A stretch of DNA of 64,000 nucleotides from Methylocystis echinoides (lineage in GTDB: Bacteria; Pseudomonadota; Alphaproteobacteria; Rhizobiales; Beijerinckiaceae), in contig NZ_CP156084.1 of assembly GCF_040687965.1 (NCBI RefSeq), forward strand, positions 2,294,501 to 2,358,500, in the 5' to 3' direction. The notes under the pieces are model-generated. The model made no database searches and was not told the origin of the DNA. It worked only from the letters and a program-made list of their open reading frames with translations. Positions within the stretch are counted from its first letter, which is position 1, and every line of letters starts with the position of its first letter. The position numbers and the translations under genes were made by a program. Positions 6,042 through 51,341 of the stretch are shown here, one piece after another.

Positions 6042-6116
6042 GGGCGGCTAGCTCAGCGGGAGAGCACTCCCTTCACACGGGAGGGGTCACAGGTTCAATC
6101 CCTGTGCCGCCCACCA
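6042..6116 (+). tRNA. tRNA-Val (anticodon CAC), intact; prophage target
   Basis: Acceptor arms GGGCGGC (6042-6048) and GCCGCCC (6106-6112) pair perfectly. The anticodon stem CTCCC/GGGAG encloses loop TTCACAC with anticodon CAC at 6074-6076. The T arm contains GGTTCAATCCC, and an encoded CCA ends the gene at 6116. The prophage restored the 3' half on integration, so the gene remains complete. Confidence 0.97.
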
Positions 6117-7890: not shown

Positions 7891-8277
7891 GAACGGAGGG
7901 GTTCCGGGCTTGTGTAGCGCTCGTTGCGGTGCGCTAGCCGACGTGGAAGACAAGGATGGCTTCCGGTCGAGTCTGCAAGGTCTGATTTATAACGATTACA
8001 AGCGGCGACTGGGATTCCCCCTGCGCGACGAAACCCCGCAAAAAGGGCCTGCCCCACGATTTCAATGAAAACTGGAGCGAGTAACGCACTTATCACAGAG
8101 AGTTCGCGAACTGCGCCGACGAGCCTGGCGCAAAGGACGCTTTCGACGCCGCGCAGACGCTCGCCCAATATTAAGGGCCAGGCATCCTAAACGCGCGAAT
8201 GCGCGGACATCACGCGGCACGCCACGCACGATTCGCAGCTACACCGCCAGCGCGGTAGGCCTTCAAAGTGAGTTCTA
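7891..8277. other. Intergenic stretch, no supported gene
   Basis: Separates two genes whose 3' ends face each other. I see no terminator with a clear U-tract and no recognisable coding sequence. Confidence 0.4.
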
Positions 8278-10023
8278 TTACCGATCGAGAACTAAAGCCT
8301 CCCTCGCTACTTCTTTGCGCGTCTCATTATTAAAAGTCTTTACGAGTTGGTGCTTTTCGGGGTCATAGGTTACAGAGCCGTGCAAGCAGGCTTGTGCCAC
8401 CTTTGGATGTTCGGCCAGAAGCGTCTTATAATTTTTCTTTGTCCACTTTATCACGCAGACACGCAACGCGTATTCGTTGCGATCGAATAGGTGACGCCGA
8501 TCACCCGGCGTCAACCCGAGAACATGCAGGCAAAAGCCAAGATAACGAGCGCCCCTAAAATTGCCGGAATGCCGGATAATTTCGTCGTATATTAAGCGGC
8601 GCACTTTAAATCTAATTACGGAATACGTGTAACCATCGCGGAATGAGAATAGAACATCCCATGCGATGTTGTGCTGCACGTTCCAGCAAAGAGATGACGA
8701 AACATCGACGGTTCCCGCCTGCGAAATTAGACTCAAGATGGCATGAGCCAGTGCGTCATAAACATCGTGATACTTCTCTTTGCTCGGTCTAAGGGAACGC
8801 GCTTTGATGCCACTTTTACCAAGCAGAGTAACAGCTTCTTTCAAAAAATCCGCAACCGCCTCGAATCGCGCATATTCCGGTGACTTCCAACTAGCGCCTG
8901 CTAGGCTATTTATTTTGTAAACCTCATTAGCGCAGCTCTTGAGAGATCCAAGCAGCCGCGCAAAAGCGTAAGAATGGGTTTGATAGGGATTTTTTTCGAG
9001 ATACGCTTTAAAGAACGCTAGGCTAGCCCTTTTGAAGCCTTCCATTTGGATGGCGTCAAGGGTGTTTATAACCAAATAGTGCAAATCCAAGGGTGAGACG
9101 CTTTTCCTAGCGCAATGCTCGACTAACTCGTAAGATCCAAAGACTGCGCTCGTGATTGGTTTTGCATAGCCAAAGTATCCAGAACTATAGCCGCTCTCCT
9201 CTTGGTAAAACGCCGAGCCTGTGTTGACGATGAATTCTTCGCCGACATTTCGAGAGAATTGAGCGAACGGAGCGTCAGGATATTCAGCCGCGAGCATGAA
9301 ACATCGAATTGCAAAAGCGGGATCGCGTTCAACGATGAGATCGCAAAACCGCCGATCAGCGAGCGATAACAGCAGATCATGCGCACAAGCTTGATCAATG
9401 GACAACTTTGAAGGGTTGCGGTGAGAACTGACTTGCGCAGCTAGGCGAAAGATATCGTCCATTGTGAAGCCTAAGTCTTCGGCGATCGCCTGAAGCCGAT
9501 CTTTGTCTCCCTGATGAATGAAGCGAGTCGTCGCGTTGAAAAATTGCACCGCGTTTGCTCGCCGAAGCTGTGCCGGTCGGAGAAAGCATACCGAAACGAT
9601 ATAGATTACGAGGCCAAGAAAAAATGCGGCTAGTATAATTTTGATGTTGCCGTAATGATTAAGGAAATGGGGCAGGGGCAGCGCATTTTGAAACCAGAAT
9701 TCGGTTAGCAGCAAAATACAGGCTATAGTGCTAGCAGTCAGAATGGCAATCCTGCGTACATCGTAGCGCGTAACGTGGAGTCGATAGCGATAACGAAAAT
9801 CGGACACGTTAAACACGACGACAAGTAAGGCGAGCGTTGACAGGAATTGCGCTAGGCCGAAAACACTTGAAGTATCCGAAGTAGCCGGTTCGATTTGAAA
9901 GCCATCCCAATCCCGAAAGGCGCGAATCACAGAAGAATATATGCTCGTCACACAATTGGCGGCAGCGGAATCAATTATGTGGAGGTTTCGAATTTCATCA
10001 ATAACCGACTGAAGGGTGCGCAT
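8278..10023 (-). CDS. Large membrane-anchored protein of unknown function
   Basis: A 581-residue protein. The N-terminal third has a short leading helix followed by three hydrophobic segments (around residues 55-72, 92-110 and 125-145). The rest, about 420 residues, is soluble and predicted cytoplasmic, alpha-helical in character with aromatic and basic patches (for example YGHD-free; SLADRRFCDLIVERDPAF near 225). I recognise no catalytic motif and no family. Codon use is more A+T rich than the phage core, and the gene stands alone in the left cargo segment. A membrane anchor with a big cytosolic domain on a prophage is compatible with superinfection exclusion or abortive infection, but this is inference only. 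Confidence 0.75.
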   Translation of the reverse strand: MRTLQSVIDEIRNLHIIDSAAANCVTSIYSSVIRAFRDWDGFQIEPATSDTSSVFGLAQFLSTLALLVVVFNVSDFRYRYRLHVTRYDVRRIAILTASTIACILLLTEFWFQNALPLPHFLNHYGNIKIILAAFFLGLVIYIVSVCFLRPAQLRRANAVQFFNATTRFIHQGDKDRLQAIAEDLGFTMDDIFRLAAQVSSHRNPSKLSIDQACAHDLLLSLADRRFCDLIVERDPAFAIRCFMLAAEYPDAPFAQFSRNVGEEFIVNTGSAFYQEESGYSSGYFGYAKPITSAVFGSYELVEHCARKSVSPLDLHYLVINTLDAIQMEGFKRASLAFFKAYLEKNPYQTHSYAFARLLGSLKSCANEVYKINSLAGASWKSPEYARFEAVADFLKEAVTLLGKSGIKARSLRPSKEKYHDVYDALAHAILSLISQAGTVDVSSSLCWNVQHNIAWDVLFSFRDGYTYSVIRFKVRRLIYDEIIRHSGNFRGARYLGFCLHVLGLTPGDRRHLFDRNEYALRVCVIKWTKKNYKTLLAEHPKVAQACLHGSVTYDPEKHQLVKTFNNETRKEVAREALVLDR

Positions 10024-33800: not shown

Positions 33801-34382
33801 TCACGCCCGCTTTTGCAGACGTTGCTTAACGTCGCGCCCGATCGGAAGCCGTAGGCCATGCTCCACGAGCTCGACGTGACCGACTGGAAAGATTATGGGC
33901 GTCGGTCTGCCGAAGATGCTCATTTCAACACACAGCACGCCTCGAGAGTCAACCCGACTGACGACGCCCTGGAAGGTTGCAAACGGCCCCTGCAAGGCGC
34001 GAACGACGTCGCCCTTAGTGAAAACAATTGATACATCAGCGCGATCCAGCCTTAGTTGGCGGTAGTGCAATATCAGCGCGTCAGGGACTGTCGCCGGCTC
34101 ATCCGATCCGGCAAAGCAGAGCCAAGCATCGACGCCAGGCTGTTCTTTGATGGCGCTGTAAACCGAATCGCTCATGTCTACCCGGATGAAGAGATAGCGC
34201 CCGAAGATCGCGACGTATCGTGACCGGCGTTGCTTGGCCTCTAACGGCCGGCCCTCCCAACGCGATGCTGAGCGGACCTTCAGCACGGGCCGCCATACCT
34301 CAAATCCAAGCGCCGCCAGGCGACCGTAGACTTCCCTGTCCTTGCCCTCGAAGCACTCGACCACATACCAGCGTTCCGCCAT
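33801..34382 (-). CDS. NusG/RfaH-like transcription antiterminator
   Basis: A 193-residue protein. The N-terminal domain (WYVVECFEGKDREVYGRLAA, then RYLFIRVDMSDSVYSAIKEQPGV) matches the NGN fold of NusG, which binds RNA polymerase. The C-terminal domain carries a KOW motif (TKGDVVRALQGPFATFQGVV, residues about 122-141). Specialised NusG paralogs such as RfaH or LoaP promote reading through long operons. Its place, last of the early genes and directly before terminase, suggests control of the 20-kb late operon, the job of lambda Q. The gene follows a repeat-rich leader. Confidence 0.85.
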   Translation of the reverse strand: MAERWYVVECFEGKDREVYGRLAALGFEVWRPVLKVRSASRWEGRPLEAKQRRSRYVAIFGRYLFIRVDMSDSVYSAIKEQPGVDAWLCFAGSDEPATVPDALILHYRQLRLDRADVSIVFTKGDVVRALQGPFATFQGVVSRVDSRGVLCVEMSIFGRPTPIIFPVGHVELVEHGLRLPIGRDVKQRLQKRA

Positions 34383-34402: not shown

Positions 34403-34662
34403 TGTCCCATGTGTCCCATCTTTGATGTAAAGATGGGACACTCTAAGTATATGATCACAAACGCGTTGCCCCATGTGTCCCATGTGTCCCATCTATTTTG
34501 CCGTCGCGACCTCAAGGGTTGAACGGTCGCGCCTACGCCATTTGGTGACCTCAATGCGCGCGCGAGAAAAAGATGGGACACATGGGACAGATGGGGCAAC
34601 CTCTGTAAGTTCAGCGCCTTACCGCGTCCCATGTTGAAACCAGACATGGGACACATGGGACA
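34403..34662. repeat. Cluster of twelve TGTCCCAT sites in 9-bp phase
   Basis: Top-strand copies start at 34403, 34412, 34467 (one mismatch), 34476, 34485 and 34625 (one mismatch). Bottom-strand copies occupy 34433-34440, 34573-34580, 34582-34589, 34591-34598 (one mismatch), 34646-34653 and 34655-34662. Within each group they repeat every 9 bp. The triplets at 34466-34494 and 34571-34599 form an inverted repeat with a single mismatch about 77 bases apart. Such phasing suggests cooperative protein binding: iterons of an origin, or operator sites. Confidence 0.9.
34411..34441 (-). promoter_or_regulatory. Perfect hairpin in the leader of the NusG-like gene
   Basis: GTGTCCCATCTTT (34411-34423) and AAAGATGGGACAC (34429-34441) pair perfectly across a 5-base loop. 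It ends 29 bases before the ATG of the NusG-like gene and contains two of the 9-bp-phase sites. It could be a DNA operator, an RNA recruitment element for the antiterminator, or an attenuator. There is no U-run for an intrinsic terminator. Confidence 0.6.
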
Positions 34663-34760: not shown

Positions 34761-36374
34761 TCATTCGGCCTCCGCCTCGCCATCTCCCGGCTCATTCCAT
34801 TTGAATTGCTGCTTGAGCGCCGCGTCGAACGCGGCGCGAGCGTCGACCAAGCTCGGGAATTCCAAACACCACACGCGCCGGATCACGGTGTGATGGGCGC
34901 CGCTTTGCTCATCGAAGACCTCGACCTCTTCGGTCGACTTCACCCGCTTCAGATCCGGCAAAAGCCGGCGCATTTGCATCCCAAACTCTATCTCCGCGGA
35001 CTTGCGTCGGACGCCGAGCTTCTCGACCGTTCGAAGGTAATCGTTGAAGATCGTCGAGGACGGCACTCTCTCGCGCCAACCGGCGGCGCGATGGGTTTGA
35101 GAGCCATCGACGAGGCGTCCGAGCCACCATGCGGCGATCGGGTCGAGAGAGCGGATTTTCTGCTCGAGCAGCGCCTCCGTTTTTGGAATGACCCGAACAT
35201 TGGGCGCGTCGGGCGCGTCGAGATCGACGGCGAGCAAATCCGCTAAAAGCGCCTCTCTCCCGCCGCTGTTGAGCTCGGCGTAGAGCTGTGCGAACCGGCC
35301 ATGGTCTTCTTTCCAATGGTCGGCGACATCGAACACCGCGAACCGCCGCTCATCCATGCCGGCGGGAACAACCCAGATTTCATTCGAAGAGAAAAGCAAC
35401 CGCACATAGTTATCAAGGCGGATTGGGTCAACGCCCTTGGCTTCGATCATTTGCTTTGGCGCAGTGACAAGCCCCTTTAGCCGGCCTTCAGCGGCCTTGT
35501 CGCCAGCCCAGAAGCCTTCGTCGACCTGGAGCAGGAGGCAGCTCGCCATATGCGCGTTGAACTGACCCACCAGATACCGGGGATCGTCGACAAGGAAATA
35601 ATGCGAGGCAAATAGCGACCCTATGACGTCGCCGACGATCGTCTTACCGGTTCCCATCTTCCCGCGCAGCACGATCGCCGTGCCGATGCGCTCGCGCGGT
35701 CGCTGCACAATATGCGCGAACCAGTGCCAGACCCACCTGAAAACCTGGTAGTCGCCGTCGCAAATATTCGCCTTCACATGGTCGAGGAAGGTGAAATACT
35801 TTTTCCAGCGCTCTCCCGGCTCCGTCTCCGCGTCGGGCGAGACAGAAAAGCCCCGCCACAAATTGAAATAGCCAGGCGTGCCAGAAGCATTCTTCGCGTC
35901 GGGGAAAAACTCTATTCCGTCATAGGTGCGCCGCCGCTTGTGCCGGAGCCAATAGGGGGCGATCGCCATATGGCGGGTGACCGTCTTGTAAGACCCGTCT
36001 TCCTGCCGCTCCCGCCGCTTGACGGGGCGTAGTTGGTTTTGAAAGTAAGCTTTGAACGCATCGATCGAAAGGACGCGGGTGCGGTCCTCGATCGGGGCAT
36101 GCGGCGTCTCGCGCATAATCACCGCGCGCGAGCCCATAAGCACGAAGCTATACTCGCCGTTCATATCGTCAATCACGTCGCCGTCAGAGCCACCATCGTC
36201 TTCAGGCGGCGGCGCGTCGCTTTCAGGCGGTTCCGATCCGCCGCCGTCGCTCGCGGGCCTGTCGCCAGGAAAGTCCGCGTCCTCGCCTTGTGCAGCGGGC
36301 GAGCGACGGACGCCCGGAAAAATCACGACTTCGGCGCCTTCGACGGCGGTGGCGATATCCTTCTTTTCGCTCAC
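34761..36374 (-). CDS. Replicative helicase / D5-type superfamily 3 ATPase
   Basis: A 537-residue protein. An acidic Pro/Ser-rich N-terminus is followed by an ATPase core with Walker A GKMGTGKT (about residue 240) and Walker B LLLQVDEGF, and a sensor region RLLFSSNEIWVVPAGMDERR. This is the DUF5906 / phage primase-helicase D5-like group, which unwinds DNA at the phage origin. Its ATG overlaps the primase stop (ATGA). The next 378 bases downstream have no gene but the repeat cluster. Confidence 0.83.
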   Translation of the reverse strand: MSEKKDIATAVEGAEVVIFPGVRRSPAAQGEDADFPGDRPASDGGGSEPPESDAPPPEDDGGSDGDVIDDMNGEYSFVLMGSRAVIMRETPHAPIEDRTRVLSIDAFKAYFQNQLRPVKRRERQEDGSYKTVTRHMAIAPYWLRHKRRRTYDGIEFFPDAKNASGTPGYFNLWRGFSVSPDAETEPGERWKKYFTFLDHVKANICDGDYQVFRWVWHWFAHIVQRPRERIGTAIVLRGKMGTGKTIVGDVIGSLFASHYFLVDDPRYLVGQFNAHMASCLLLQVDEGFWAGDKAAEGRLKGLVTAPKQMIEAKGVDPIRLDNYVRLLFSSNEIWVVPAGMDERRFAVFDVADHWKEDHGRFAQLYAELNSGGREALLADLLAVDLDAPDAPNVRVIPKTEALLEQKIRSLDPIAAWWLGRLVDGSQTHRAAGWRERVPSSTIFNDYLRTVEKLGVRRKSAEIEFGMQMRRLLPDLKRVKSTEEVEVFDEQSGAHHTVIRRVWCLEFPSLVDARAAFDAALKQQFKWNEPGDGEAEAE

Positions 36375-37585
36375 CAGCGCTGCCTCATACGCATATCATT
36401 GAAATCCAGACCTTCCTCGCTCATCGCCAGTTTTATGGCGAGAGCGGGATATTCCCGCGAAAATCGCTTGGCCGCGCGCAACAGCGCCAGGCGGGTGGTG
36501 AAAGGATCGCTGTCTCCGTCGCCGAGGAGGACGAGCTCGTCGACGCTCGGCGGGATAAAGATGACAGGCCAATCCAGCTCGGGGTCCACTGGCGTGTCGT
36601 CACGCGCGATGACCGGCCGCGTGCGGCCCTTGGAGTCGACGAAGGTCTTCGTCGGATGTCGAACGCGGCCCTTGGCCTTGCCGCCAAGGTTGTCGAGATC
36701 CACGCTTGTGCGGAATTCCGCGCCCTCTATGAGGGCGGAGCCAGCCTCGACGAGGGACCAATAGACCGAAAGGACGGTCTCGATGCCTTCGCCGAGAAAC
36801 CAGCGCCTCGGCTTGTGCCCGGCGGAGACCATGCGGATTGATCCGCCCTTGAGAGAGCCCCGCACCTTCTTTGCCGGGAGCATCAGGCCCGTCTCGGGAT
36901 CGATCGTTTCCGCCTTGCCCTTTGGCGCGTCGAGATCAATCCAGGTGACGTGCACGCCTGTGAAACGGCCGTCGACGCCTTCGATCGCCGCGAGCATCGC
37001 CGGCCCCCTGCGCGCGACCGTGCGTCTCGATTCCGTCCAGAGCTCCATTTCGGCCGCGAAACGCAGTCGTGAGGTCGCGTGCGGCCGGATTCGCCGCCGC
37101 TCGAGATAGGCCTCCGCGGGCGTCCCCTCAATCTGGATAGAGCGCTGCCAGAAGCCCCAGGCGCGACGACGCTCCGCTTCACGATAGGCGTTCTGCTCCC
37201 GGGCTCGCCGTGCTTCCTCAGCGATCCGTTTTTCTTCCCGCGCGGCGAGGCGCGCCTCTCGCTCCCGCCGCTCCTCCGGCGTCTCCCTCGCGTCACGGCC
37301 CGGGGGCGCGCGGCCGGTCACCGCCTCACAGGCGCCGAGGAAGTCGAGACCGTCGATATGCTGGGCCAGGGCGATCGCGTCGCCGGAAAACCCCGACGCT
37401 CGGCAGTTCCAGACGTTCTTCCGGGTGTTGACGGAAAAGCGATCGCGGCCGCCGCAGCCGGGGCAGGGCTGCCCGGCGTCGCCGGGCCTGATCTTGAGCC
37501 CGCGCGCGGCGCAATAGCTTGCGACGGTCACACGCCGCGCTTCGTCGATCCATTCGCGCCAGGCAAAATCCTCCGAGACGCTCAT
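36371..37585 (-). CDS. Phage DNA primase with zinc finger and Toprim domain
   Basis: A 404-residue protein. The N-terminus holds a zinc-finger-like CPGCGGRDRF with a later WNCRASG, as in DnaG-type primases. A charged Arg/Glu-rich linker spans about residues 90-140. The C-terminal part is a Toprim-like domain with LGEGIETVLSV and LLGDGDSD, the acidic residues that bind Mg. It makes RNA primers for phage replication. Overlaps the genes on both sides by four bases, so the primase-helicase set is one coupled unit. Confidence 0.83.
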   Translation of the reverse strand: MSVSEDFAWREWIDEARRVTVASYCAARGLKIRPGDAGQPCPGCGGRDRFSVNTRKNVWNCRASGFSGDAIALAQHIDGLDFLGACEAVTGRAPPGRDARETPEERREREARLAAREEKRIAEEARRAREQNAYREAERRRAWGFWQRSIQIEGTPAEAYLERRRIRPHATSRLRFAAEMELWTESRRTVARRGPAMLAAIEGVDGRFTGVHVTWIDLDAPKGKAETIDPETGLMLPAKKVRGSLKGGSIRMVSAGHKPRRWFLGEGIETVLSVYWSLVEAGSALIEGAEFRTSVDLDNLGGKAKGRVRHPTKTFVDSKGRTRPVIARDDTPVDPELDWPVIFIPPSVDELVLLGDGDSDPFTTRLALLRAAKRFSREYPALAIKLAMSEEGLDFNDMRMRQRW

Positions 37586-40425: not shown

Positions 40426-41904
40426 ATGCCAGAGTTCATTGTCATAGACATAGAGACAGCTAACTCTGATATTTCTAGCATATGTGCCGTCGGTCTTGTA
40501 CATTTCAAGGGCGGCCAGCTTTTCAACTCTCTAAGTTTCCTTGTGGATCCAGAAACACACTTCAGCCGAAAGAATATTTCTATCCACGGGATAAGACCGG
40601 AGGATGTAGTCGGAAAGCCTAAAATGAGAGAGATTTTTCCATTACTTTTGACCGTTCTAGATGGGCATGTAATTGCACACCACACGCATTTCGACCGATC
40701 CGCCCTGAAAAAAATTTCTCAGATGTATGGATTTCCAGAACTCCCCGTCACCTGGGTTGACACCGCGGCAGTAGTAAGAGGCACATGGGATCGCTACGCC
40801 CGTTCCGGCTACGGCCTCGGGAATCTTGCTGAAGATTTGGGAATTGAATTTCAGCACCACGATCCTAGAGAGGACGCGCGGGCCGCCGGGTTGATTCTTG
40901 TCAAAGCGTTGACCGAGTCTGGTTTAAGCCTAAACGAATGGATCAGTCGGACAGGCTCTCCCATTCGCCAGAAGAGTAATAAACAGCCAACTGACGGTAA
41001 TGCGCTAATACATGCGGATCATAGAGGCTATTTTGCATTCACAAAAAAGTCGCGGATTGATAAGGCGATAAACACGCTCAGCGGAATAATACATGGGATA
41101 ACCATAGATGCCGAAATTAATCCCGAAGAAATAGAGTTTTTACATCGATGGCTAGAGGACCATAGGTTCCTGGCGGAGCGTCATCCGTTCAATGAGGTCA
41201 TCCCTATTGTGCATAGAATCCTGCTGGATGGCGTCATAACAGAAGATGAGAAAGAAGATCTTACTTGGGTTTTTGGAAGGCTTCAGTCCACGGAATATGC
41301 CGATAGAACAGCGGCACATATGCAGAGGCTGCACGCAATTTTGAGTGGCATCGCCTCTGATGGGCGCATCACCACCCAAGAGCTGATAGGCCTATCTGCT
41401 TGGCTCTCGGAGCACGAACATTTAGCAACGATCTGGCCATATGACGAAATTAAGAGTGTTGTCACCGACGTCTTGTCAGACGGAAAAATTGAAGAAGCCG
41501 AGCACAGGATGCTGCTCAGCTTCTTCCAAGAATTCACCGCGATCCTCGATGACCGGACGATCAGACAGCCCACCGCCTTCGATGACGGTCAACGGTTGGT
41601 TGGTGTATGCGCGGTTAAACCGAAAATAAGGTTCGGCAGCGAAACGTTTTGCCTGACGGGGAAGTCTTTTCGGTATTCTCGCGAAGAGTTCACAGGGTTG
41701 ATCAAGGACCGCGGCGGGCGCGTCGTATCGTCTATGTCTTCGAAGGTTGGCTATCTTATAGTCGGCTCTGATGGCAACCCTTGCTGGATGTATGCCTGCT
41801 ATGGGCGAAAAGTTGAAAAGGCTGTGGAGCTCAGAAAGGCCGGCGCCCGGGTGCTGATCGTTCATGAGAATGACTTCCATGACGCGGTCAAAACTTCGGA
41901 CTAG
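40426..41904 (+). CDS. DEDDh exonuclease-TerB-TerB-BRCT protein
   Basis: A 492-residue protein, 12 bases behind the repressor. Residues 1-170 form a DnaQ-type 3'-5' exonuclease: D8 and E10 in VIDIETAN, then HDPREDARAAG. Two related helical repeats follow (about 205-375), each with an acidic loop of the form DGxI-x2-xE (LLDGVITEDEKEDL; ASDGRITTQELIG; LSDGKIEEAEHRM), as in TerB domains. The C-terminus (about 405-485) is a BRCT domain (FCLTGKSFRYSREEFTGLI). It may trim or sense DNA ends. Probably cargo transcribed in the lysogen with cI. Confidence 0.8.
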   Translation: MPEFIVIDIETANSDISSICAVGLVHFKGGQLFNSLSFLVDPETHFSRKNISIHGIRPEDVVGKPKMREIFPLLLTVLDGHVIAHHTHFDRSALKKISQMYGFPELPVTWVDTAAVVRGTWDRYARSGYGLGNLAEDLGIEFQHHDPREDARAAGLILVKALTESGLSLNEWISRTGSPIRQKSNKQPTDGNALIHADHRGYFAFTKKSRIDKAINTLSGIIHGITIDAEINPEEIEFLHRWLEDHRFLAERHPFNEVIPIVHRILLDGVITEDEKEDLTWVFGRLQSTEYADRTAAHMQRLHAILSGIASDGRITTQELIGLSAWLSEHEHLATIWPYDEIKSVVTDVLSDGKIEEAEHRMLLSFFQEFTAILDDRTIRQPTAFDDGQRLVGVCAVKPKIRFGSETFCLTGKSFRYSREEFTGLIKDRGGRVVSSMSSKVGYLIVGSDGNPCWMYACYGRKVEKAVELRKAGARVLIVHENDFHDAVKTSD

Positions 41905-44073: not shown

Positions 44074-44340
44074 ATGAAGCGTGCACGTTTCACTGAAGAG
44101 CAGATTATCGGCGTGCTGCGGGAGCATGAGGCAGGCGCGAAGACCGCCGATCTCGCCCGCAAGCACGGCGTTTCCGAAGCGACGCTCTACAACTGGAAAG
44201 CCAAATACGGCGGCATGGACGTTTCGGAGGCTAAGCGTCTGAAGGCGCTGGAAGAGGAGAATGTAAAGCTTAAGAAGCTGTTGGCGGAAGCCATGCTCGA
44301 CGCCTCCGCGCTCCGTGAGCTTCTGTCAAAAAAATGGTAG
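44074..44340 (+). CDS. IS3-family transposase OrfA
   Basis: An 88-residue protein with a helix-turn-helix ([20 protein letters not shown]) and a leucine-zipper helix ([20 protein letters not shown]) that continues into OrfB on frameshifting. It ends seven bases into orfB. AAAAAAA at 44328-44334 is the likely -1 slippage site that makes the OrfAB transposase. Confidence 0.92.
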
Positions 44341-45260
44341 GGCCCGCCGCCAAGCGCGAGGGAGTCGCGCATCTGCGGGCCGCGATGGGCCTGTCGGAAC
44401 GGCGGGCCTGTGGCCTTGTCGGCGCGGATCGCACGATGATCCGCTATCGTTCTCGGCGTTCGCCGGACATAGAGCTGCGGGAGCAGATCCGCGATCTCGC
44501 CAACGCCCGCAAGCGCTTCGGTTACCGGCGTTTATTCATTTTGCTGCGCCAGGCGGGCGAGCCTTCGGGCGTCAACCGCATCTACCGGCTCTATCGCGAG
44601 GAGGGCCTGAGCGTGCGCAAACGACGATCGCGAAAACGCGCCGTCGGGACACGGGGGCCAATTCCAATTGAGGCAAAGGCCAATGCGCGGTGGTCGCTCG
44701 ACTTCGTTCACGACCAGTTCGCTAGCGGTCGCCGCTTCCGGGTTCTGAACATCGTGGACGACGCGACGCGTGAATGTCTCGCAGCAATCCCCGACACGTC
44801 GATTTCGGGCCGTCGCGTCGCGCGGGAGCTTACGGCGCTGATCGGCAGGCGCGGCAAGCCAGGGACGATCGTTTCCGACAATGGCACGGAGTTCACCTCG
44901 AACGCGATGCTCTCCTGGTCAGAGGAGCATCGGATCGCTTGGCATTTCATCGCCCCGGGCAAGCCCATGCAGAACGGCTTCTGTGAGAGCTTCAATGGGC
45001 GGATGCGCGACGAACTCCTAAACGAGACGCTGTTTCTCGGGCTAGACCACGCCCGAGAGAAGATCGCGGCCTGGGTCGATGACTACAATCACCGGCGACC
45101 GCATTCCGCGCTCGCCTACCTAACCCCGGCAGCCTACGCCGCCTCGCTCCCCGCAACATGCAATCGGCTGCGCAACCCCGACCAGCTTCGCCGATCGCAT
45201 GTTGCTCACATCGCGCCTCACGGCGTAAAACTCCACGGGGCTCCAATCGCCGCTGGATGA
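44334..45260 (+). CDS. IS3-family transposase OrfB (DDE integrase domain)
   Basis: A 308-residue catalytic subunit. The helix-turn-helix-like N-terminal segment ([15 protein letters not shown]) is followed by the rve integrase core with the DDE residues in [19 protein letters not shown] and [13 protein letters not shown]. Its frame is -1 relative to orfA. Full length for the family, with no stop codons, so it is probably functional. Confidence 0.93.
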
Positions 45261-47128: not shown

Positions 47129-49312
47129 ATGACTCTACGGCTTTCTGAAATCTTCGGCGTCTCCAAGTTCAACGCGCGCAAGGACGCGCCCAACCAACAA
47201 GAAATCGAGGAAATGGCCGCGAGCATCCTTGCGCGCGGCGTGACGACGCCTCTCACTGTCCGAATGGAGGACGGAGCCTGGCGAGCGCTCGACGGCGGCC
47301 GGCGCCTGGCCGCACTTGGCTTCCTCGTCGCCGAAAGCAGGCTGCCCGACGGCGAGGCCTATCCCGTCCCAGTGACCTTCTTCGAAGGCGATGACGAGGC
47401 GGCGGCCGAAGTCTCTCTGATTTCCTTCGTGCATCGCCGCGATTTGCACCCGGTCGAGGAATTCGAGCGCTTCGTGGAATTGCAGGAGCGCTTCGGACTC
47501 GACGCCCAGGCGATCGCCGCGCGGACAGGCAAGACGGTCGCCTTCGTAAAAGGGCGCCTGCGGCTTGCTCGGCTATCGCCGAAGGTCCGCGGAGCCTGGC
47601 GCAAGGGCGAGCTGACGGCCGACCAGGCGCGCGCCTTCTCAGCTACCGACAATCAGGAGGCGCAGGACGCGTTTCTTACGGGCAACCAGTTCCACGCGAC
47701 CGTAGGTGCGCGTTGGATCGCGCGGACGCTTTCCGGAAATGACGTCTTGACGCGCGACGCGCGCGTGATCTTCGCCGGGCTCGACGCCTATGTTGCAGCC
47801 GGCGGCCGCCTCGACGAGCAGCTTTTCGAGGAAGAAAGCCTCATTCTCGACGTCCCCATTCTCGACGCCGTGGCGCGCGACGCCCTCGTCGCGAGAGCGG
47901 AGGCGCTCTGCGCCGCCGAAGGCTGGGGCTGGTTCGAGACCTCTTACGGCGAAGCGAAGTTCTTCGATTTCGATCGGGTCGAGCGCTTCGATCTGACGGA
48001 CGACGAGCAAGCCCGTCTCGACGAAATCGAGGACCTCTGCGACGAGGCGGAAGAAGCCGACGACGAGGCCACGATTGCCAGCCTCGATCTGGAGGTGCGC
48101 GAGATCCAGGGCCGCGCCCGTCTACGCGCCATTCCAGCGGAAGAGCGGGCGACGCTCGGCATTTTTGTCGAAATCGGCGGTGAGGGCGAATTTGAGGTTT
48201 CTTACGCCCTTCGGCAGGGCACAGCTCAGACGCGAGAGGAAGAGGGCGATCAGTCCCCCGAAGCCAGAACGACCCGCGGCGAGAGGGCGTCTGCGGGGCC
48301 GACACCGCCGCCAGTGAAGCCCAGCGAGCCGATCGGCCGGACGACGCGGGCCATTCTCGACGAGGCGGCGACCGCGGCGCTTTCCGACGCCTTCGCGCGC
48401 AATCCGCGGCTGGCGATGCTCTTCATGGTCGCCGCCTTGGGCTGCGGCTACGGCGCCTCGCCGCTCCATGCGTCGGGGACGGCTAGATCTGGCTTTGCGC
48501 CGGAGAACGCCTTGCTTGCTGAAATCCGTCATGGGGGCTTCGAAAAGGCGCTGGCGATCTGCGCGCGACACGAGATCGAAGATCCGGCGACGCTGCCCGT
48601 CGCGTTCGCCACGCTCGTGGGCGGCCTGGTCAGCACCGATCGCGTCGCGGAATTCGACACCGCGCGCATCTCTCTCGCGGCTTGCTCGCGGTTTTGCGAC
48701 ATCGCCGGAGACCTGCGCCGACACATGGATTTCGAGGCCTATTTCAAGGCCGAGCCTCGCGACGAGGCGATCGACGCCATCCGCGCCATGGACGGCCAAG
48801 GGGCGTCGAGCGACGCCGGGAAGCTCAGAAAGCCCGAGTTGGCGAAGCGCGCCGCTATCCTCGCTCAGGACCGCGATTGGCTTCCTGTGGTTTTTGCCGA
48901 GGCTCTAGGCGCAGAATCCGGAGAGGTGGCCGCGCCGGATCCGGACACGCGTTCGACCGCCGAAGCCATGCGGGACGCGATCGAGGTCGATGAAGCGGCG
49001 AGGGCAGGGGCGCAGGACGCCCTCGAGCAGAAAATCTCGGAGGCCGCTTCGGCCTATCCCGGCCTTGCCGAATTTCTTCGCCAAAACGTGCACTTTGGGA
49101 ATGAGGCGCTCGATGCTGGCCGCGTGAAGGCTTCGGATCTTTACGACGCCTATCTTTCATTTTGCGAACGCGCCCAGAGAAAAGCTGCGTCCCTCCGCGA
49201 GTTCGGCAACATCATTTCACAGATCGGCGTTGAGAAGAAGCGCCTGAAGAACGGCGTGCATTATCTCAACATCGCTCTTCGCGGCGTCGCCGCATCGGCG
49301 ACGGCAGCATAG
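47129..49312 (+). CDS. ParB-like protein with extended C-terminal region
   Basis: A 727-residue protein. Residues 1-95 form a ParB N-terminal domain with DGGRRLAALGF as the nucleotide-binding box. A helix-turn-helix follows (AIAARTGKTVAFVKGRLRLA, about 130-149). The middle is acidic (DLCDEAEEADDEATIASLDL). The C-terminus (about 663-718, SDLYDAYLSFCERAQ and LREFGNIISQIGVEKKR) resembles the winged helix at the end of D5-type primases. No ParA is nearby. It may act in phage replication or in silencing rather than partition. Longer than ordinary ParB (about 300). Confidence 0.8.
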   Translation: MTLRLSEIFGVSKFNARKDAPNQQEIEEMAASILARGVTTPLTVRMEDGAWRALDGGRRLAALGFLVAESRLPDGEAYPVPVTFFEGDDEAAAEVSLISFVHRRDLHPVEEFERFVELQERFGLDAQAIAARTGKTVAFVKGRLRLARLSPKVRGAWRKGELTADQARAFSATDNQEAQDAFLTGNQFHATVGARWIARTLSGNDVLTRDARVIFAGLDAYVAAGGRLDEQLFEEESLILDVPILDAVARDALVARAEALCAAEGWGWFETSYGEAKFFDFDRVERFDLTDDEQARLDEIEDLCDEAEEADDEATIASLDLEVREIQGRARLRAIPAEERATLGIFVEIGGEGEFEVSYALRQGTAQTREEEGDQSPEARTTRGERASAGPTPPPVKPSEPIGRTTRAILDEAATAALSDAFARNPRLAMLFMVAALGCGYGASPLHASGTARSGFAPENALLAEIRHGGFEKALAICARHEIEDPATLPVAFATLVGGLVSTDRVAEFDTARISLAACSRFCDIAGDLRRHMDFEAYFKAEPRDEAIDAIRAMDGQGASSDAGKLRKPELAKRAAILAQDRDWLPVVFAEALGAESGEVAAPDPDTRSTAEAMRDAIEVDEAARAGAQDALEQKISEAASAYPGLAEFLRQNVHFGNEALDAGRVKASDLYDAYLSFCERAQRKAASLREFGNIISQIGVEKKRLKNGVHYLNIALRGVAASATAA

Positions 49313-50181: not shown

Positions 50182-50556
50182 TTGAGCAAGCCGCCGCAAA
50201 GCCTTTTGACCATTGATGAGGTCGCCGATAGGCTTCACGTCTCCCGGCGCTGGCTGCAGGGGTTCTTGCGAAGCCGCTCTTATGGTCGCATGGCCGGGCG
50301 GAAGCGGCTGTTTACTGAAAGCGATGTTGTTCAAATTATTGAGGATTTGCCATGCCCCTCAAGCTCATCCCGCCACGCGCCGGAAAAAGTCCGAACTGGA
50401 CGGTTCGCGGGACACACCTCGGGGTCCGCGTTGACCGAACTACGGGGGCTTCTGACAAAAAGCTCGCGGGCAAAGTCCTCGCCCAAATCCGAGACGAGAT
50501 CGAACGTGGCTCCTTTTCCGGGCCAAAGAAGGCGACCTTCGCGAACGCCGCTCTGA
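50182..50556 (+). CDS. Excisionase-like MerR/HTH_17 protein
   Basis: Starts with TTG 50182 after GAGGAGATC. The first 55 residues hold a winged helix of the HTH_17 type (LLTIDEVADRLHVSRRWLQG, with YGRMAGRKRLFTESDV), as in phage excisionases. The remaining 70 residues are basic and low in complexity and overlap the integrase gene by 205 bases in another frame. Next to integrase, it most likely directs excision. Confidence 0.72.
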   Translation: MSKPPQSLLTIDEVADRLHVSRRWLQGFLRSRSYGRMAGRKRLFTESDVVQIIEDLPCPSSSSRHAPEKVRTGRFAGHTSGSALTELRGLLTKSSRAKSSPKSETRSNVAPFPGQRRRPSRTPL

Positions 50557-51341
50557 AATATGTCCGGACCGGGGGTGAACCGCGGTTCGTGTTAAAGCTC
50601 GCCGAGCACTTCGGTGAGACGCCGCTCGAGCGTATCGACCAGGCCGCGATAGACGAAGCCGCAGTGACTTTGTATCCTCGCGCGTCCATGGCGACGCGCA
50701 ACCGGCAGGTTTATTCCCCGGTTTCAGCGATCCTGAAACTCGCTGGCGTTGACGATCGCCTCCGGCGGCCGAAGGGAGGCCGCGGAAGCCGCCGCATTTT
50801 CTGGCTCACTCCTGAGCAGGCGGAGAGGTTGCTCGCGGCCGCTGGGGAGCGGGATCCGGAATTCGGAGTCTTCCTTACCTTTTTGCTTTACACCGGCTGC
50901 CGCCTATCCGAGGCGCTGACGCTCGATGTCGAGCGCGTTAATCTGCCAGAGGCGTGGGCATACATCCCGATAACAAAAACGGAGGCGCCACGGCTCGCCC
51001 ACCTTCCGCCCGTCCTTGTCGCGGCCCTTGCAGGACACCCCCGCGGTCTCGACCGCAAGGGCAAGCTATTCAGGTTCGGGAAGAATGGGCGGCTTTACGC
51101 GTGGCTAGACGAGGCTGCGCGGGCAGCTGGCGTCGATATCCCGCCGCGCGTGGCCTTCCACGCCTTCCGCCACACTTGGGCGACCTGGATGCGCCGCTAC
51201 GGCGGCCTCGATACTGCCGGGTTGGTCGAGACACAGGCTTGGCGCTCCCGCCAGGCGGCGTCAGTTTATGAGCACCTGGTCCAGACTGAGGAGGCGCGAA
51301 AAGCAGATTTTCTGCCCCAGGTTTGGAAGGCGCCCACATGA
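50352..51341 (+). CDS. int: Tyrosine-family site-specific integrase
   Basis: A 329-residue recombinase. Catalytic residues are visible: R184 in TGCRLSEAL, H270 and R273 in FHAFRHTWATW, and the nucleophile Y306 in SVYEHL. The usual box II histidine before the tyrosine is replaced (ETQAWRS), a common substitution by W in this group. The first 60 residues form the arm-binding part. It integrates the phage at tRNA-Val; the gene lies 1.3 kb from attR, with one cargo gene between. Confidence 0.94.
   Translation: MPLKLIPPRAGKSPNWTVRGTHLGVRVDRTTGASDKKLAGKVLAQIRDEIERGSFSGPKKATFANAALKYVRTGGEPRFVLKLAEHFGETPLERIDQAAIDEAAVTLYPRASMATRNRQVYSPVSAILKLAGVDDRLRRPKGGRGSRRIFWLTPEQAERLLAAAGERDPEFGVFLTFLLYTGCRLSEALTLDVERVNLPEAWAYIPITKTEAPRLAHLPPVLVAALAGHPRGLDRKGKLFRFGKNGRLYAWLDEAARAAGVDIPPRVAFHAFRHTWATWMRRYGGLDTAGLVETQAWRSRQAASVYEHLVQTEEARKADFLPQVWKAPT

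Follow-up and report, generated by a model that had tools for sequence, protein, structure and literature searches.

The closest described counterparts of the element treated here are the replication origins of satellites, namely of the phage-inducible chromosomal islands (PICIs) and of P4. The origin of EcCICFT073, a PICI of Escherichia coli, is reported to be functional and to drive helicase-dependent plasmid replication (PMC6092414). It directly follows the 3' end of a D5_N/DUF5906 helicase gene (pri-rep) and is built of TGTCTACC-like sites in the strand order ++-+++|--+--, with 9-bp outer pairs; in its left arm an AT-rich gap (0.81) separates the outer pair from the inverted single site. 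In P4, the type-1 repeats (TGTTCACC) of ori1 read ++-+++ on one strand, at offsets 0, 10, 53, 75, 86 and 96, while a second site, crr, is placed 3' of the alpha gene and holds 9-bp pairs; the alpha protein has DUF5906 and Pox_D5 matches. Here we describe an array at positions 34403-34662 of a 64,000-nucleotide stretch of the Methylocystis echinoides genome (contig NZ_CP156084.1, positions 2,294,501 to 2,358,500; hereafter the window), located in a prophage. It shares placement and outer spacing with the EcCICFT073 origin, and placement and spacing with crr; an AT-rich gap lies in its left arm too, and its neighbouring helicase, like alpha, has a DUF5906 match. A preceding reading of this DNA from its letters alone (the sequence-only reading) knew of no described element with this layout. 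That statement does not stand, since the string, one site short, is also found in the EcCICFT073 origin, and one arm equals the order of P4 ori1. The array itself is real and its layout is of a kind known from satellites. We consider it highly probable, judging from sequence comparison, that the array is the replication origin of the prophage, composed of iterons to which the C-terminal winged helix of the prophage's own helicase (DUF5906, SF3/D5-like) binds.

The array and its symmetry

The element comprises twelve 8-bp sites, of which nine are exact copies of TGTCCCAT, two are TGCCCCAT (34467 and 34591) and one is CGTCCCAT (34625). All twelve were found where the sequence-only reading had placed them. 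They are listed below together with the gaps and the centre; sites come from the site search, gaps and centre from base composition, and the whole element from the site search, repeat finder, template test and shuffles.

34403-34662, no strand: whole element, two mirrored six-site arms, proposed replication origin
34403-34410, + strand: site A1, TGTCCCAT
34412-34419, + strand: site A2, TGTCCCAT
34433-34440, - strand: site B, TGTCCCAT
34441-34466, no strand: gap B to C1, AT 0.62, candidate melting segment
34467-34474, + strand: site C1, TGCCCCAT
34476-34483, + strand: site C2, TGTCCCAT
34485-34492, + strand: site C3, TGTCCCAT
34493-34572, no strand: 80-bp centre separating the arms, AT 0.425 (window 0.393)
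34573-34580, - strand: site C3', TGTCCCAT
34582-34589, - strand: site C2', TGTCCCAT
34591-34598, - strand: site C1', TGCCCCAT, variant identical to C1
34599-34624, no strand: mirrored gap C1' to B', AT 0.46
34625-34632, + strand: site B', CGTCCCAT
34646-34653, - strand: site A2', TGTCCCAT
34655-34662, - strand: site A1', TGTCCCAT

The site order is two plus, one minus and three plus, followed by three minus, one plus and two minus, which gives six sites per strand and six per arm. The arms are exactly mirrored, with offsets of 0, 9, 30, 64, 73 and 82 counted from either end, and the variant TGCCCCAT occupies the matching mirrored position in both. The mirrored groups of the earlier description (two, one, three, then three, two) were recovered, but its numbers sum to eleven and omit the single bottom-strand site at 34433; likewise, the 9-bp intervals it regarded as constant hold inside the groups and not between them. 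The perfect 13-bp hairpin it had seen was confirmed by the repeat finder (34411-34441), which also returned a 26-nt pair at 96% and arms of 96 nt, 77% complementary and 68 nt apart.

All nine exact copies of TGTCCCAT in the 64 kb fall within the element, while 100 dinucleotide shuffles gave a mean of 0.73 and a maximum of 3. Allowing one mismatch, the whole window held 34 matches versus 25 expected, so that the surplus is the element itself. Against a template of three direct and three inverted 8-mers the element scored 46 of 48; the best of 510 shuffles of helicase flanks reached 39. When the genome containing the window and those of 60 relatives were searched (61 in all), the paired word (TGTCCCATNTGTCCCAT) was present in the former only, at the element. 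No promoters or terminators were predicted inside the element, and the RNA family search gave one match, ArcZ, located outside it (E 0.075; 21.6 bits, the cut-off being 66). As described earlier, the element lies between the helicase gene (34761-36374) and the NusG-like gene (33801-34382). It lies 98 bp from the helicase stop codon and, on the transcribed strand, is 3' of the helicase and ahead of the NusG-like gene.

The array in relatives of the helicase

The comparison covered 38 loci from named genomes, 68 from viral contigs and the window, of which 5 of the 107 were too short to score; the duplicates L176, L178, L181 and L164 were dropped. Each whole locus was scanned de novo for its densest 8-mer array, the location not being given to the script. 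Five viral relatives of the helicase, counted among the 68, showed the same layout in the same place with other words, TGTCCCACC, TGTCAGACC and TGTCCAACC, and TGACATACC at 10-bp spacing. Among the 53 non-duplicate loci with a helicase identity of at least 43%, the densest window lay at the 3' end of the helicase gene in 49, and the strand string equalled that of the window in 8 and came within one site of it in 22. That string occurred in none of 39 control loci, either exactly or within one site, nor exactly in any of 24 other dense windows. Template scores of 40 or more were reached in 51 of the 102 scored loci; L172 scored 46 with its densest window elsewhere. The 47 non-duplicate arrays used for geometry, a set from which L165 was excluded, had 30 different 9-bp consensus words, some of them common to several phages.

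Two side observations belong here. Stretches with the paired word (L006-L125) mostly lack this helicase, and one group of them has CAAATGGG-type repeats. In L150, a periplasmic-binding-protein reading frame (8237-9514) stands directly behind the array, as if the array marked an element edge there.

Association with the helicase or the NusG-like gene

The sequence-only reading had suggested a search for the array in relatives and for its co-occurrence with either neighbour, and in our comparison the array followed the helicase, not the NusG-like gene. Among 89 eligible helicase loci, 16 had a NusG-like relative, 48 had an array (score of at least 40) and 15 had both, leaving 33 arrays at loci where a profile derived from the collected loci found no NusG-like relative at E 1e-3. 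In ten of these the long frame behind the array was compared with Pfam; none was NusG, and eight matched nothing. Where both neighbours were kept the array was kept as well, the sixteenth locus, L146, scoring 39 with 11 sites in the expected position in the free scan. The loss of the array from such loci, named by the sequence-only reading as a refutation, was therefore not observed. A search that started from the NusG-like gene gave 50 NusG-like loci, 46 of which were examined, four being too short. The array was present in all 11 with a helicase upstream (eight of these repeat loci already counted), and 0 of the 35 without a helicase reached 11 sites, including L241 and L242, whose NusG-like protein is 69% identical. 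Six of the 35 had 10 weak sites (L252, L267, L270-L272 and L289); L266 ends at a contig edge, and in L241 the NusG-like gene begins right behind another reading frame, with no space for an array. Since either of the two, array and NusG-like gene, can occur without the other, we assign the array to the helicase.

The helicase, its predicted recognition helix and the prophage

The helicase and its neighbours are the following, with the basis of each assignment in brackets.

34761-36374, - strand: SF3/D5-like helicase (DUF5906), 537 aa, proposed initiator reading the sites (PF19263 E 3.7e-22; fold matches)
34815-35162, - strand: C-terminal winged-helix part of the helicase, residues 405-520 (domain analysis)
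34989-34991, - strand: codon of Ile462, with which the predicted recognition helix begins and whose identity changes together with word positions 7-9 (co-variation)
36371-37585, - strand: primase-like protein (DUF7146), separate gene upstream of the helicase (phrog_510 DNA primase)
33801-34382, - strand: NusG-like antiterminator gene, neighbour, dispensable for the array (profile matches, dissociation from the array)

Of the features of an SF3/D5-like self-loading helicase, the core is present, as is a predicted C-terminal winged-helix origin-binding domain. Residue 462 was T or S in 27 of 27 loci with a word ending in ACC and in 0 of 16 other loci; L190, which has a gap at column 462 and a word ending in ACC, stands outside this count, and L163 and L190 were left out of the column scan. 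Word and residue switched in parallel about ten times on the tree. A sister pair illustrates such a switch: L143 has T462 and the word TGTCCTACC, L148 has I462 and the word TGTCCTAAG.

In the primase-like protein the Zn-ribbon and Toprim matches fall below Pfam's cut-off. The surrounding prophage genes include terminase, a lambda-family portal, tape-measure, an S24-type repressor and integrase. Elsewhere in the window we noted a 727-aa protein with a ParB helix-turn-helix domain (47129-49312), an RNase_T-type exonuclease with a C-terminal BRCT domain (40426-41904), a transposase-type integrase core (rve) and a tyrosine-integrase gene (44334-45260 and 50352-51341), and a tRNA-Val (6042-6116) that might be an attachment site.

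Geometry and number of sites

In the 47 arrays the outer sites mostly lie about 55, 65, 74 or 85 bp from the inner triple, with a best period of about 10.5 bp (R 0.91), and the centre, 50 to 114 bp long, shows no phasing (R at most 0.13). Such phased arms around an unphased centre suggest that the proteins of an arm sit on a single face of duplex DNA and that the arms act separately. The arm-internal gaps are AT-rich, 0.57 and 0.53 versus 0.36 for the locus. A weak common motif around TAA and TTGA was seen, over 76 arms, in the gap that separates site B from site C (34441-34466 in the window, and its mirror).

The template, which is unable to count above six sites per arm, found six in 60 of 94 arms, five in 24, four in 8, three in 1 and two in 1. 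In the free scan of 49 loci a total of 12 sites was commonest (20 loci), followed by 13 (13 loci), 11 (10), 10 (4), and 9 and 14 (one each). Similarity was slightly higher for mirrored than for non-mirrored inner sites (16 arrays in favour, 6 opposed, 25 tied; p 0.02), which we take as a hint.

Other helicase families and plasmids

Arrays of other helicase families were read by eye from one- and two-mismatch lists; the counts given here are those at one mismatch. Mirrored arrays of 10 sites stand behind VapE-like helicases (L019, L049 and L053), and others directly 3' of phrog_21086 proteins (L013 3460-5313, 12 sites; L039 10260-12008, 13; L086 3388-5742, 7). The latter proteins, whose function is listed as unknown, have weak P-loop matches in these three loci and are likely initiator helicases. 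Two further mirrored arrays are kilobases away from a fused primase-helicase gene: 12 sites in RHph_X2_30 (L235 10117-10409, template score 36) and 10 in RDJL6 (L238 10979-11260, score 40). Together with 12 sites in L165, 13 in L037 and 7 in L101, the counts vary, so six per arm is not universal. Inverted iteron arrays were also found 3' of a DUF5906 gene on small circular plasmids, a Roseomonas plasmid (L291 6128-6400) and pMNOD07 (L290 6816-7050). Megablast with the VapE-type locus gave no hit in E. coli.

Weighing the origin reading

The iteron-type replication origin, one of the options of the sequence-only reading, is strongly supported by the recurrence of the array 3' of helicase relatives, by its association with the helicase instead of the NusG-like gene, by the co-variation of word and residue 462 and by the same string, less one site, in the EcCICFT073 origin. 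The C-terminal winged helix would bind the sites, each arm offering six of them in the order two, one inverted, three, with one helicase subunit per site and one ring per arm. Because the arms face each other, two rings could be loaded head to head and would then depart in opposite directions. Melting would probably begin in the AT-rich gaps within the arms, and priming would be supplied from the separate primase gene just upstream. That six sites match a hexamer is an attractive inference, not a result.

Several observations weigh against this reading or narrow it. The suggested check of GC skew gave no support for an origin, since the cumulative skew peaks at the array, opposite to the usual leading-strand bias at an origin. 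AT enrichment of the centre is slight (0.41 versus 0.36 for the locus in the 47 arrays). Column 462 was chosen after all columns had been viewed, and some columns distant from the domain reach z 4 as well. Of the 52 eligible loci with at least 43% helicase identity, eight score 34-39 (L136, L146, L151, L160, L162, L168, L180 and L186); five of them have 11-13 sites in the right place in the free scan, and L136, L160 and L168 do not, the match to the helicase in L160 ending at residue 472. Helicases at most 37% identical have no adjacent array in 32 of 35 loci and have one in 3. Eight named phages with a helicase 30-38% identical were read, out of 386 records with a related helicase; two have an array kilobases off, and six have none within 6 kb of the helicase. 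One of three plasmids examined, out of 10 records, is without an array. The paired word is common in viral contigs (at least 120 stretches), and a helicase-profile match was found in only 5, and a NusG-like match in 4, of the 120 listed. In view of the distant helicases, the named phages and the one plasmid, the array-helicase link holds for this clade and not for every DUF5906 protein.

The helicase might also bind the array as a control site, for copy number, handcuffing, autoregulation or as a cis-acting enhancer like P4 crr, with the origin elsewhere. The type-1 repeats beside the alpha gene of P4 are indeed crr, with ori1 4.7 kb away, and the sites of one protein can serve several roles. 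We nevertheless regard this as improbable: the window is without a second array of the word, every exact copy sitting in the element, the array of the same string in EcCICFT073 is reported as an origin (PMC6092414), and the 2-1-3 arm has the order of ori1, not of crr. Far less probable still is an RNA or DNA recruitment site (ops-like) for the NusG-like antiterminator, acting on the downstream late operon, another option of the sequence-only reading and one contradicted by the arrays and NusG-like loci counted above. The element does stand just ahead of the NusG-like gene, its predicted transcript folds extremely well (z -9.45), site A2 resembles site B slightly more closely than A1 does, although by a small difference only (0.949 versus 0.925, 59 arms), and a NusG-like gene is also found behind arrays beside another helicase family (L013, L086 and L101). 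But any inverted array folds stably, and the occurrence beside phrog_21086-type helicases means that NusG-like genes recur behind such origins for some other reason. A NusG-like relative is missing by profile search in 33 of 48 eligible array loci, helicase-less NusG-like genes are without arrays of at least 11 sites, even where the protein is as similar as in L241 and L242, helical phasing is a property of duplex DNA, and the word changes follow the recognition helix of the helicase. This reading is very probably wrong, and the NusG/RfaH recruitment site was rejected on the double dissociation of array and NusG-like gene.

Two other functions are suggested by genes in the window, and to both we assign almost no probability. 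The terminase genes come after the NusG-like gene, and the array could serve packaging as a pac/cos site recognised by the small subunit of the terminase, whose gene comes directly after the NusG-like one, but similar arrays occur on two small plasmids. The ParB-like protein might read the array as a partition centromere; its gene is, however, more than 12 kb distant, and co-variation links the word to the helicase.

Extending the origin reading, we put forward a tentative scheme, which we hold to be rather less probable than its negation. The ring would set the number of sites, with six iterons per arm, one for each hexamer subunit, and mirrored arms templating a double hexamer, across helicase families (DUF5906, phrog_21086, PICI and, by half, P4), also where the order inside the arm differs. 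A winged-helix code, in which residue 462 specifies word positions 7-9 while wing residues 477 and 480-481 specify positions 5-6 and 1-3, respectively, would let phages keep switching origin specificity, perhaps escaping satellites or rival prophages that would use the same helicase. The dozens of natural helicase-origin pairs with different words would make it testable how a self-loading ring helicase finds its site and opens the duplex, and why an arm has six sites; with the residue-to-word rule it could become possible to predict origins from the sequence of the protein, and phrog_21086, a family listed as of unknown function, gains a suggested role from the arrays behind its genes.

Comparison with known origins

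Two features of the PICI/P4-type origins were found at the element, its position immediately 3' of the initiator helicase gene and two inverted sets of short iterons. As to a third, an AT-rich stretch with iterons on both sides, the gaps within the arms are AT-rich and the centre is not. Further close systems are the SaPI (Staphylococcus aureus pathogenicity island) Rep origins of SaPI5 and SaPIbov1 and the C-terminal region of the NrS-1 phage primase-polymerase. A literature search, covering Creative Commons papers in PubMed Central, yielded no paper recognised as describing the layout in complete phages. The EcCICFT073 origin has 11 sites, one of them with two mismatches, and its arm offsets are 0, 9, 57, 77, 88 and 97, compared with 0, 9, 30, 64, 73 and 82 in the element; its inner groups are about 25 bp apart instead of 80, and its right-arm gap is not AT-rich (0.43). 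The two helicases were not alike in BLASTP (E 1.7). In P4, ori1 consists of a single arm, and crr, made up of two direct repeats, lies apart from it, whereas the element has two mirrored arms together. New here are the conservation of such arrays across a large set of phages and prophages, the plan of 6+6 sites in mirror image and the residue-to-word rule. EcCICFT073 is a satellite, while the element sits in a full phage; if the origin reading is true, origins of the satellite type (P4/PICI) are placed in complete temperate phages.
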